From Falsiroseomonas algicola (GTDB lineage Bacteria > Pseudomonadota > Alphaproteobacteria > Acetobacterales > Acetobacteraceae): a stretch of 64,000 nucleotides of DNA. The notes beneath the pieces are model-generated. The model did not search any database, was not told the origin of the DNA, and worked only from the letters and a program-made list of their open reading frames with translations. The stretch lies in NCBI RefSeq assembly GCF_011040385.1, contig NZ_JAAIKB010000004.1, positions 248,001 to 312,000 of the forward strand, in the 5' to 3' direction. The translations under genes and the position numbers were made by a program. The number at the start of each line of letters is the position of its first letter. The stretch's first letter is position 1. Below are positions 58,724 to 62,242 of this stretch, piece by piece.

Positions 58724-61171
58724 CTACTCCAACGCCGCGGGCAGGCGCGCGGGCGTGCCGGCAGGCCAATCCGCGACCAGGCGGGACAGCGGCGCGCGCA
58801 GCCGGCAGGCGAGGCCGTCCTGCCGCCATTCCGTCAGGATGGTGCCGCCGAGCTGATGCAGCGTGGCCTGCAGCAGGCGGGACCCGAAGCCGAGCCTCGC
58901 CGGCGGGCCGGGCAGCGGCGACGCGCCCGTCTCCACCCAATCCAGCAGGAAGGTCCCCGCCGACGGATCCACCGACCAGCTGACCGAGACGAGCCCCCCC
59001 GGCACCGACAGCGCGCCATGCTTGGTGGCGTTGGTGGCAAGTTCATGCAGCGCCATGGCGAGCGGTTGCGATGCCTCCGCCGCGATCTGCAGCAGCGGCC
59101 CGTCGAGCGTCACGCGAGGCTGCCCGGCGGACCCCGCGGGGCCGATGAAACCCGCCAGCTCGCCCTCGATCAGCAGGCGCAGCGAGGTGCCGCTCCAGCT
59201 GCCCTCCGCCAGCAGCGTCTGCGCCCGCGCCAGCGCGTTGACCCGGCCCTCGATGGACCGCGCGAAGGTGGCGGCATCGCCGCGTGGCGTCAGCCGCAGC
59301 GCGGCCTGCACCACCGCGAGCGCGTTCTTGGCGCGATGGTCCACTTCCCGCGCCAGCAGGGCCTGGCGTTCCTCCGCCCGTCGGCGATCGGTGATGTCCT
59401 GCACGGCGGCGACACATCGCGCCGGCTGCCCCGCCACCCCCGGCAGCAGCGCCACCGACATGATGACCCAGCGCAGGCCGCCATCCCGGTGCAGCAGCCG
59501 CGTCTCCACCCGATAGGGCCGCCCCTCCGCCATCGCCTCCCGCAGCCCCGCGGCGTTGGCGGCGCGGTCCTCGGGGTGGATGAGGTCGAGGATCGTCGGC
59601 CCCTCGGCCAGCGCCACCTCCTCCTGCCCGACGATCTGGCAGAAGCCGCGATTGGCGCGGATGATCCGGGATGTCGCGGCATCGGCAAGGACCTTGCCGA
59701 TGACCGAATTCTCGAAGATCGCGCGGAATTCCGCGGCGCTGGCGGCCAGCGCCTCGGCCGCCGCCCGCGCTTCGGTGACGTCGATGTTGACGCCGACGAA
59801 CCGGCTCTCTCCCGCGCTGCCAGCCGTCGCGACCATGCGCCCATGGGCGCGGATCGATCGCTCCTCACCCGTATCGGCACGACGGATGCGGAAATGATCC
59901 TCGTAGCCGCTGCCGGATTCGATGGCGGCGCGCATCGCCGCGGCCACGCGTGCACGATCGGCGGGATGGACATGGCGCAGCCAGGCATCCCAGCCGAAGC
60001 CATGCGGCGCCGCCGTGGCGGGCAGGCCGTAGAGCTGCACCTGGGAGGCACTGACCACGGCCTGCCCGGTGTCGGGCACGAGTTCCCAGATGCCGATCCG
60101 CCCGGCCTCCTGCGCCAGGCGCAGGCGCTCCGCCCCCTCCGCCAGGGAGACACCGACCTGGTCGAGTTCGCGGATCGAGGAGGGGCCGGGCGTGGAGCCT
60201 GGCTCGGTCGCCGCGCGGCCAAGCGCGCGGATCGGCTGCGCGAGGCGCCGGCCCTGCAGCACCGCCGCGGCAAGCGACGCCAGGACCGCGAGCAGCCCCC
60301 CCGCGGCGAGGAAGATCCCGGAGCGCCGGATGGGCGCGTCCAGCACCGCCTCCGGCACGCCGATGGCGACGCGCCAGCCCCAGCCGGGGAGGCGGACATA
60401 GGCGCCCCAGACCGGCACACCGGCAACGTTCACGCTGCGGACCGTGCCTTCCGCCGCCGCGGAGGTGGCTTCCCGCAGCGCGGCATTCGCCGGGCTGCCG
60501 ACGAAGCGTTCATGGTCAGGCCAGCGCGCAACGATGCGGTCGGTCCGGTCCAGGATGGAAACGCCCCAGCCCGCCGGAAGCCGATGGTCGGCAAGCAGGG
60601 TCGCCAGGTGCGCCGCGCGCACCGCTACGCTGAGCGCGAAGGCCACCTGACCCTCGAGGATGACCGGGGCGTCCAGCAGGACATAGGGCTGCGGGTCGAC
60701 GGTGCCGGTGTAGAGGTTGGAGACGCAGATCGCCTGCGTGCGGAACACGCATTCATCCGCCGCCAGGACTTCCGGCGCCACGGTCACGGGAAGGGGCGTG
60801 CCAAAGGGGAACAGCGTGTTGATCAGGTGCTGTCCGGTGCGGTCCCGCATGACGATGACGCTGCCATCCGGCACGATCTGCGATGCCTGCTCCTGGAACC
60901 GGCGCAGATCGCCATCCGTGATCGCGGGCGACGTCGCCAGGGCTCGGAGACTGGCGCCGAAGCCGCCCAGCGCGCGGTCCAGTTCCAGTGCCAGGTTGCG
61001 GGCGACCAGGATGGTCTGCTGCTGATTGTCCCGCCGTTCCGCCCTGAGGGCCGCCCAGCCCACGAAGCCGAGCAGGCACCAGAGGGGAACGACCACCGAC
61101 AGCACGAGGACGGCCAGGTGGGCCCAGATGGGGCGTGCCGGGCGGCCGGGTCCGACGACGGCAGATTGCAT
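58724..61171 (-). CDS. HWE-family sensor histidine kinase with PAS domains
   Basis: An 815-residue membrane sensor. It has a first transmembrane helix (AHLAVLVLSVVVPLWCLLGF, about 17-36), a periplasmic double-cache-like region (about 50-285), a second helix (about 288-310), two PAS domains with PAC tails (about 350-470 and 475-590) and the HWE kinase core. Core motifs are the phospho-acceptor histidine in LAREVDHRAKNALAVVQAALRL, MALHELATNATKHGALS, WVETG and GFGSRLLQA. The ATG at 61171 is preferred over a TTG ten codons earlier. No response regulator is adjacent. The core closely resembles that of the kinase near 17-19 kb. Confidence 0.93.
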   Translation of the reverse strand: MQSAVVGPGRPARPIWAHLAVLVLSVVVPLWCLLGFVGWAALRAERRDNQQQTILVARNLALELDRALGGFGASLRALATSPAITDGDLRRFQEQASQIVPDGSVIVMRDRTGQHLINTLFPFGTPLPVTVAPEVLAADECVFRTQAICVSNLYTGTVDPQPYVLLDAPVILEGQVAFALSVAVRAAHLATLLADHRLPAGWGVSILDRTDRIVARWPDHERFVGSPANAALREATSAAAEGTVRSVNVAGVPVWGAYVRLPGWGWRVAIGVPEAVLDAPIRRSGIFLAAGGLLAVLASLAAAVLQGRRLAQPIRALGRAATEPGSTPGPSSIRELDQVGVSLAEGAERLRLAQEAGRIGIWELVPDTGQAVVSASQVQLYGLPATAAPHGFGWDAWLRHVHPADRARVAAAMRAAIESGSGYEDHFRIRRADTGEERSIRAHGRMVATAGSAGESRFVGVNIDVTEARAAAEALAASAAEFRAIFENSVIGKVLADAATSRIIRANRGFCQIVGQEEVALAEGPTILDLIHPEDRAANAAGLREAMAEGRPYRVETRLLHRDGGLRWVIMSVALLPGVAGQPARCVAAVQDITDRRRAEERQALLAREVDHRAKNALAVVQAALRLTPRGDAATFARSIEGRVNALARAQTLLAEGSWSGTSLRLLIEGELAGFIGPAGSAGQPRVTLDGPLLQIAAEASQPLAMALHELATNATKHGALSVPGGLVSVSWSVDPSAGTFLLDWVETGASPLPGPPARLGFGSRLLQATLHQLGGTILTEWRQDGLACRLRAPLSRLVADWPAGTPARLPAALE

Positions 61172-61336
61172 CACGGCCGCCCCATCCCGCCAGGACCTCA
61201 AGTGCGAAATAGTTTATTGATCACGTCCCCTGGCAGGGTCGAGGGCGAGATGCCTGGTGTCGCGCCGTTTTGATGGCGGCATCGTACCGGCCCCGTCCTG
61301 GATCTCGCCGGACGAGGCCCTGGACGGCCGGCCTGA
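61172..61336. other. Non-coding stretch upstream of the HWE kinase
   Basis: This is the kinase-proximal half of a 324-nt gap. It should hold the kinase promoter; the only AT-rich patch is just upstream of the kinase start (61207-61220, read on minus). I find no convincing promoter pair or gene. The remainder of the gap is the palindromic element listed next. Confidence 0.4.
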
Positions 61337-61495
61337 CAGGCTGCGGAAGAACGGGCGGCTGAGGATGGACGAGCGAATTTTCGTGCAGGAAAGGATGACG
61401 CGCAGACACGATGTGGTTGCATCGTGGCAAGCGGCAGACGAATCGTGCGCGGAAAGGCGTCGTCCAGCCGACCCGTCCCGTTCTTCCGCAGCCTG
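61337..61495. repeat. 159-nt long imperfect palindrome with 19-bp perfect arms
   Basis: CAGGCTGCGGAAGAACGGG (61337-61355) is exactly complementary to 61477-61495. The interior is also symmetric: a seven-base pair block TGGACGA (61366-61372 with 61460-61466), a further 14-base block with ten Watson-Crick and two G-T pairs, and an apical stem CACGATG/CATCGTG (61407-61413/61420-61426) with a six-base loop at the exact centre. It directly follows the stop codon of the unknown-function gene. It could be a non-autonomous mobile element (MITE-like), a large terminator or a structured RNA. It matches no sequence elsewhere in the window that I noticed. Confidence 0.75.
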
Positions 61496-62242
61496 CTAAA
61501 GCACCCGTTCGAACGGCACCGCGCGGCAATCCATCTCGTAGTCCAGCCCGACCACGGGCGGGCGGCAGAACTGCCAGGTGACGCCGTGGCGGGCCGCGCC
61601 ACGCGCCACCAGCGCCTCCGCCAGGAAGGGATGGATGTCGTGCACGGTATAGGCCTGCACCCCGGTGGTCATGGCCCAATGGCCGTCCAGCGCGGCCATG
61701 CGGCGCTCCATCTCGCGCAGCACCCAATCGGCCTTGCAGCGCATGCCGGCCGGCGAGGTGTCGTCGAGGGCGATGATGTGGTCGCGGTAGTTGGCGTGGC
61801 CTTCGGGGGCTTCCCCGCTGCCGGCGACGACGAAGCTGGGCGCGGCGGCGGCGTCGGGCATGGTGTAGCTGAAGGCGTGGAAGCCGGGCTCCGCGGGGGG
61901 CGCGACTTCCGGGCAGACATTGCTGCGCGCCACGGGGTTTCGGCCCTCCACCAGCACGCCCCATTCGCCGAGCACCGCTGCGTAGTCGCGGTTGAACCGG
62001 AGAAATCCCTGTTCGGTGAAGGGGGCGGGCGAGCGGAGCTCGCAGGCGCAGAAGGCGTTGAGCGGCCGGCCCAGCGCGGAGAGGTGGGATGCGATGCGGC
62101 GCCAGCCCTCCGCCATCGGGACGGGCTCCGCGAAGCGGGCGCGTTCCAGCCGGAAGCCCGGCAGCGCGGCGACGCCGCCGGAATACTGGAAGACGCCGGG
62201 CATGAAGCGGAAGCCGGCCTGGGGCACGGGGATGGCGGTCAT
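61496..62242 (-). CDS. Conserved protein of unknown function, RidA-like features
   Basis: A 248-residue soluble protein without signal peptide or membrane segment. The second half (MERRMAALDGHWAMTTGVQAYT, then VHDIHPFL) resembles the central helix and strand of RidA/YjgF proteins, and the first half (FLRFNRDYAAVLGEWG then NPVARSNVCPEV) could be a second, diverged repeat. I do not assign a reaction. The start has the ATG at 62242. It lies downstream of a Bug gene on the same strand (52-base gap), so it is probably co-transcribed and acts on the imported compound. The palindromic element follows its stop codon immediately. Confidence 0.7.
   Translation of the reverse strand: MTAIPVPQAGFRFMPGVFQYSGGVAALPGFRLERARFAEPVPMAEGWRRIASHLSALGRPLNAFCACELRSPAPFTEQGFLRFNRDYAAVLGEWGVLVEGRNPVARSNVCPEVAPPAEPGFHAFSYTMPDAAAAPSFVVAGSGEAPEGHANYRDHIIALDDTSPAGMRCKADWVLREMERRMAALDGHWAMTTGVQAYTVHDIHPFLAEALVARGAARHGVTWQFCRPPVVGLDYEMDCRAVPFERVL

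Follow-up and report, generated by a model that had tools for sequence, protein, structure and literature searches.

The near-palindrome of 159 bp at positions 61337-61495 of the window (the whole 64,000-nucleotide stretch of DNA analysed here, C44:248001-312000 of a source genome of 6.56 Mb in 90 contigs with 71% G+C, below called the own genome) is probably an element with IS5-type ends that duplicates a YTAR target and carries a phylum-wide hairpin kept folded as a single strand, most likely RNA. The evidence, drawn from sequence, consists of copies, ends, target repeats, insertion sequences (IS) of sister genomes with matching ends, a common core, covariation and strand asymmetry. The class and phylum sampled appear to be the Alphaproteobacteria and the Pseudomonadota, going by an alpha-tmRNA (L352) and the named matches given below. 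The parts of the element and its surroundings are as follows.

61333-61336, + strand: left target repeat, reading CTGA and differing from CTAA by one letter.
61337-61495, + strand: complete non-autonomous element of family 1, 159 bp, matched over its whole length by five further copies in the own genome.
61337-61355, + strand: left terminal inverted repeat CAGGCTGCGGAAGAACGGG, with its exact reverse complement at 61477-61495.
61354-61477, + strand: core common to families 1 and 2, 124 nt (123 nt in family 2).
61384-61448, + strand: conserved central hairpin motif, matched by model R3 with 38.0 bits, E 2.2e-7 (L001:1548-1612).
61392-61395, + strand: AGGM box (AGGA).
61401-61405, + strand: YGCNG box (CGCAG).
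61406-61427, + strand: apical stem-loop.
61428-61431, + strand: CAAG box.
61437-61440, + strand: RACG box (GACG), coupled to AGGA.
61477-61495, + strand: right terminal inverted repeat CCCGTTCTTCCGCAGCCTG.
61496-61499, + strand: right target repeat CTAA, whose CTA is the TAG stop of the minus-strand gene.
61496-62242, - strand: 248-aa ORF whose TAG stop adjoins the element; its closest orthologues (in genomes G013 and G006) have no element there.

The letters bear out what the first-pass annotation had described, namely a near-palindrome of 159 bp with perfect 19-bp terminal inverted repeats, which enclose an imperfect stem with a further, apical stem in the middle. The conserved motif reads on the + strand and the ends of the element coincide with the flanking repeats. 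Folding of both strands, which the annotation had proposed, found each far more stable than shuffled sequence: for positions 61330-61500 the + strand reached -102 kcal/mol (z -9.27, against shuffles at -63.05, sd 4.2) and the - strand -86.7 kcal/mol (z -7.67), and none of 200 shuffles matched the native energy on either strand. The element had also been placed directly after a stop codon. The letters TGA do stand at 61334-61336 on the + strand, but the real gene end lies on the other side and on the other strand, where the TAG stop of the minus-strand ORF 61496-62242, a protein without a Pfam match, directly adjoins the right end of the element.

Judged by its sequence, the palindrome is a mobile element. 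Blastn found six full-length copies in the own genome, the window copy included, which are 94-100% identical, and two additional full-length copies in the sister genome G013; no match was found in the plasmid collection. The flanks are CTAG on both sides in five of the six own copies, whereas in the window copy the left flank is CTGA and the right flank CTAA. Neither of the G013 copies has a clean 4-bp repeat (L024, TCAA/TTTA; L030, TTAA/TAAA, where a 3-bp TAA repeat may be read), and L030 interrupts what by eye is a cupin-like reading frame. The viral contig L117 holds a 119-bp element with the end letters of family 1 between CTAA and CTAA. In G013 and G006 the orthologues of the 248-aa ORF, 92% identical as proteins, end with a TAG that no element adjoins, so that the orthologous site is empty at the stop codon; yet the far flank is rearranged, since the neighbourhoods differ in these two genomes. 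The suggestion of a MITE-like element is supported: the element is short, lacks a transposase gene and has perfect terminal repeats, it exists in several copies between direct repeats of the target, its site is empty in orthologous positions, and the ends of a partner IS match its own. A chance palindrome, in favour of which nothing was found, is next to impossible given the fold z-scores, the copies, the target repeats and the empty orthologous site.

Two further observations concern the neighbourhood and the copies. The 248-aa ORF and a TctC-type receptor gene are separated in the window by the gene of a PAS/HWE histidine kinase (58724-61201), and in G013 and G006 receptor-like sequence follows, by eye, shortly past the stop of the 248-aa orthologue, which suggests that the segment beside the element holding the kinase gene was gained. 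One locus of the own genome (L007, C6:35340-35461) is a half copy, the right part being family 1 and the left part different, also palindromic.

The first 12-13 letters of the left terminal repeat are those of IS5-type IS ends. A 23-letter pattern of CTAG plus end was found in five stretches of Acidobacteria, Dehalococcoidia and Chloroflexi MAGs, and in two of the Acidobacteria MAGs (L056, 1.3 kb; L053, 2.4 kb with a second ORF) a transposase is enclosed by two such ends, CAGGCTGC[GT]GAA, with CTAG flanking both sides. These transposases match Pfam DDE_Tnp_1 and the NCBIfam IS5 family NF033581 (271 bits for the Acidobacteria-MAG transposase against a cut-off of 140). Tblastn with the L056 transposase matched 7 of the 15 genus genomes at E <= 1e-10, the own genome included, the match in G001 having only 32% identity; the IS5 assignment by library scan covers the L053 and L056 transposases, to which the genus proteins are joined by this tblastn similarity. 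Two loci of the genus, L209 and L210, have CAGGCTGC[GT]GAAA ends, of the CAGGCTGCGGAAA and CAGGCTGCTGAAA types, with CTAG on both sides; the L210 frame has one stop. Ends in common with an autonomous IS, as expected of a MITE, were thus found at L209, L210, L053 and L056. Among the remaining stretches, L055 and L057 (Dehalococcoidia and Chloroflexi MAGs) have a CTAG followed by a CAGGCTGCGGAA(A/G)AACGGG end and then a plain GC-rich hairpin, not the motif, and L054 (Acidobacteria MAG), which lies at a contig edge, resembles a further end of the IS in L056.

The search for a partner IS in the own genome brought no intact one to light; contig C18 has a partial relative whose ends could not be recognised, and the end pattern gave no exact family-1 end outside the six copies. 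We therefore infer movement in trans: by the precedent of MITEPsy1, the transposase of an IS5-type IS would act in trans on the element. MITEPsy1 of Pseudomonas syringae is, in the accessible part of its report, a 100-nt element labelled 'IS5?' for which transposition was observed, and it is like the window element in being small and in its CTAG or YTAA target with a 4-nt duplication; its ends, GGAAGGTCTGAAAAAGCC, differ, and that part of the report does not mention a conserved internal hairpin (PMC3189936).

To judge by alignment, a second family of elements has the core of the window element but differs from it in ends and target. Copies L009-L018 have the inner sequence of family 1, most with the ends GAGACCGTTTGAGAA or a variant, and family 2 is defined by these ends and the target TNA; identical 3-mers, all of the TNA form, stand on both sides of 14 of the 32 family-2 copies (counted by eye). 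Twenty-four family-2 cores, leaving out copies with an extra hairpin and three missed by the pattern, align without gaps at 123 nt, next to 124 nt in family 1. The model R2 built on this core gave 24 matches in the own genome, among them the window copy (C44:309354-309477), and matched 14 of the 15 genus genomes at E <= 0.01. On the Aureimonas plasmid NZ_CP006369.1 a 70% relative lies between two genes, yet with other ends. An IS with family-2 ends was not found by end search in the own genome or the viral contigs, and a genus search by the P0003 transposase gave ends such as CTAGGTTCTGTGGAC, TAGGTCGCGTGGAC and CTAGGGTCCGTTAGCG, not GAGACCGTTTGAGAA. The extra hairpin of some family-2 copies, of about 24 nt (GGCGTGCC..GGCACG), sits in the right arm and lengthens the core to about 147 nt as against 123 nt; it occurs in L036, L044 and L050 (G006, G013) and in L232 (own genome, C22:70229-70375).

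The gene-end position of the elements follows from the target site, the TAG stop beside the window copy being part of the target. The stop of a coding-like ORF adjoins the element exactly in 15 of the 40 family-1 and family-2 elements of the own genome and the genus (5/8 of family 1, 10/32 of family 2; lower bounds, owing to a strict GC3 filter), six of these stops being on the motif strand and nine on the other. Background sites adjoin such stops at 27/1330 TNA, 2/26 YTAR and 2/12 CTAG, by a function nearly, not exactly, the same as that applied to the elements. Since the duplicated target rebuilds the stop codon, insertions at stops cost little. Orientation relative to the adjacent gene is unbiased over the 40 copies: family 2 has 6 sense, 6 antisense, 5 both and 15 none, and family 1 has 1 sense, 4 antisense, 1 both and 2 none.

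The idea of an exceptionally large structure at the 3' end of the upstream transcript accordingly gives way to the target site. It is improbable that the element serves the adjacent gene mainly by terminating transcription in both directions or by stabilising the 3' end. The very stable structure and the exact stops would fit it; however, the target explains the position and its duplication supplies the stop, copy L030 lies inside an apparent reading frame, and a terminator scan found no terminator in the window element, so that an intrinsic terminator was rejected.

The hairpin reaches well beyond the genus. R2 matched 25 of 385 genomes of the class, own included, the common part being by eye mainly the centre, where the order is AGGM, a stem of about 6 bp, YGCNG, an apical stem-loop, CAAG, the other stem half and RACG. 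We modelled the centre alone (R3; 64 positions, 27 sequences chosen by box pattern and pairing). At E <= 0.001, R3 matched 47/385 genomes in the class sample and 46/398 in the phylum sample, the own genome being included in both and 33 of the 46 lying outside the class; both samples were even, with stricter filters and at most 13 candidates scored per genome. Named matches are Aureimonas and, further, Azotobacter, Pseudomonas and Halomonas. In four MAG genomes reached through the loci of other phyla, R3 scored no better than E 0.043.

The loci read among these matches show elements about 270 bp long, with AGGGTCTGTTGACGTTT or AGAGCACTATCCGACC as examples of their end repeats. In 38 of 78 distinct places among the matches listed, the opposite strand bears a second motif; all 38 pairs are convergent, 36 with a gap of 39-44 nt, and neighbours in the other order number 0. 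The other 40 places have a single motif only, and may include some with a second hairpin below threshold. The linker of 39-44 nt (as in L373, L380 and L400) often has CCCGAAGGG or CCCTTCGGG, itself hairpin-capable. Blastn with one two-hairpin element against the plasmid collection matched four records at 74-76% coverage, with no annotated feature beneath the matches.

Whereas the ends are those of IS5-type elements, the hairpin is not part of such IS. A 267-bp element in viral contig L459 has the ends AGGGCCTGTTGACGTTT, and two IS of 857 and 859 bp (L431, L436) have nearly the same ends around an ORF that fills most of their length, that of L431 being an IS5-family transposase (NF033580). Among 26 loci searched with R3, the 25 with a whole or partial IS gave nothing better than E 0.059, and the sole strong match was L459. 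The hairpin as a normal component of the IS was rejected on this ground, and the hairpin centre is older than the element ends.

Covariation, coupling within the loop and an excess of G-T pairs are signs of selection for a folded single strand. In the 27 centres, whose choice by box pattern and pairing favours structure, 86.3% of cells pair, against 60.0% when shuffled and 31-39% when slid, 143 cells are doubly changed against 50.9, and the covariation score is 0.678 against 0.216. In alignment A3 (MAFFT), L001 is one base out of register, hence its single G/G cell. Compensatory changes affect 10 of 43 pairs in the 24 family-2 cores, which were collected by blastn or by their end pattern and so are free of that bias. 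Their M and R letters (of AGGM and RACG) are coupled without Watson-Crick pairing in 24/24, as A-G in 16, C-A in 8 and crossed in 0. On one strand these cores have 48 G-T cells against 4 A-C (27 against 4 without a single column that supplies 21 of the 48); since copies are related, cells are not independent events. The first-pass annotation had read the G-T pairs as a hint of RNA-type selection, which for the family is upheld by this excess, with single-stranded DNA as the other candidate. In 115 distinct model hits the boxes parse in 104, with AGGC/AACG in 50, AGGA/GACG in 49, crossed pairs in 2 and others in 3. The 107 G-T against 14 A-C cells of the same hits are weaker evidence than 48 against 4, because the model favours G-U. 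Of 86 model hits, 78 have a motif strand that folds more stably than the opposite strand and 7 the reverse, also under DNA parameters; the same model bias applies to this comparison.

These data bear on three readings of the hairpin. In the first, the element would be a plain MITE, its core due to common descent and its pairing to hairpin-templated repair or cruciform correction with no function. Template correction does keep arms complementary, orientation is unbiased, and L055 and L057, of which one end each was seen, have a plain GC hairpin behind a CTAG-flanked end. However, correction removes mismatches, yet the loop boxes recur, by eye, in distant hits of R2, a model of family 2 alone. 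Repair that restores pairs would neither keep coupled mismatches such as A.G and C.A nor prefer one strand as the G-T excess does, and we consider this reading unlikely. The main rival is that the folded strand is single-stranded DNA in replication or transposition, not RNA. This is conceivable, although we would not expect it. In its favour, the two-hairpin forms show one motif per strand in 38/38, G-T pairs are tolerated in single-stranded DNA, DNA parameters too favour the motif strand, and orientation to genes is unbiased. Against it, both ends and short duplications point to a DDE-type IS, and IS with such ends lack the hairpin, so the transposition reaction itself has no need of it.

The third reading, a putative action of the hairpin as RNA for the benefit of the element itself, is to us the most likely. 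A point against RNA is that the window motif lies on the + strand and the adjacent gene is transcribed from the - strand, so that read-through from this gene yields the complementary strand. A more specific form, which we put forward tentatively as a serious possibility still short of probable, is a mobile RNA domain: a hairpin with a covarying non-Watson-Crick loop that would be a functional RNA, host-factor-bound or catalytic, needed by the element and independent of the transposase, and carried across the phylum by miniature elements. IS5-type ends would then change as lineages change their IS, and head-to-head doubling would have come about in many lineages, giving each strand a working copy.

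The AGGA/GACG foot, which we take to resemble the feet of REPs, counts for a GTAG- or CGTC-tagged REP, perhaps RAYT-mobilised, a reading that we regard as very improbable. Like the window family, GTAG/CGTC REPs are palindromes near gene ends, often in inverted pairs resembling the pairs seen here, and many are thought to act as RNA; in the accessible text of their description they differ in being 20-40 bp long, tagged GTAG or CGTC, and without IS5-type ends (PMC3733652), whereas the ends and repeats of our element are IS5-type. A GTAG REP was rejected since the foot tag GTAG occurs in only 16/110 motifs, and a CGTC REP because the 64-nt centre with two internal loops compares with stems of 8-9 bp, loops of 4-5 nt and a CCA tail in that source (PMC3733652).

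Other known systems share single traits. The CIR repeats of Caulobacter and Brucella are likewise alphaproteobacterial and intergenic, with two arms and a linker, but are, as far as the consulted portion of the source goes, about 110 bp long and marked by GANTC (PMC2229807); they were rejected with GANTC in 7/115 motifs and 9/38 two-hairpin elements, the window copy having one GAATC. MITEAba12 of Acinetobacter is also an IS-derived miniature element of near-constant length with supposed movement in trans, but in the part of its report at hand it has a 9-bp duplication, and its conserved ends and variable centre are the reverse of the window family (PMC6382973). IStrons similarly are structured RNA riding on IS mobility; in the excerpted source they join a group I intron to an IS (PMC4227781), whereas here a small hairpin, not known to be catalytic, sits on non-autonomous ends. 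Rfam 15 gave nothing at E <= 1 over window positions 60800-62000 and no family at threshold on the element in 39 other loci, so a known Rfam family was rejected; mir-1304 hits, on the L346 element only, scored 32.5 and 29.7 bits, below the gathering threshold of 90. Related kinds of element are thus known, and a description of this motif was not found in the open-access literature searched; searching by end sequence returned only unrelated papers.

To conclude, we propose that insertion duplicates a 4-bp YTAR target, mostly CTAG, that such sites are often gene ends in a genome of 71% G+C, and that the rebuilt stop codon lets insertions there be harmless and survive, which provides a simple account of palindromes at stop codons. 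On this view the hairpin (AGGM / YGCNG / CAAG / RACG) belongs to a superfamily of miniature elements found across the phylum, with ends that vary according to the IS5-type IS available. Selection would hold it folded as a single strand, most likely RNA, and it would serve the element, not the host, perhaps as the binding site of a widely conserved host factor or as protection for a transcript; the convergent double form would give one correct hairpin on either strand, whichever the direction of insertion. A covariance model is available for testing recognition of the hairpin by a widespread host factor. Descriptions of miniature transposable elements usually have the ends conserved and the middle variable or dispensable. 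The present family reverses the pattern, with a middle conserved phylum-wide between ends that change, and so suggests that non-autonomous elements are able to carry a structural domain under selection and to move from one transposase to another.
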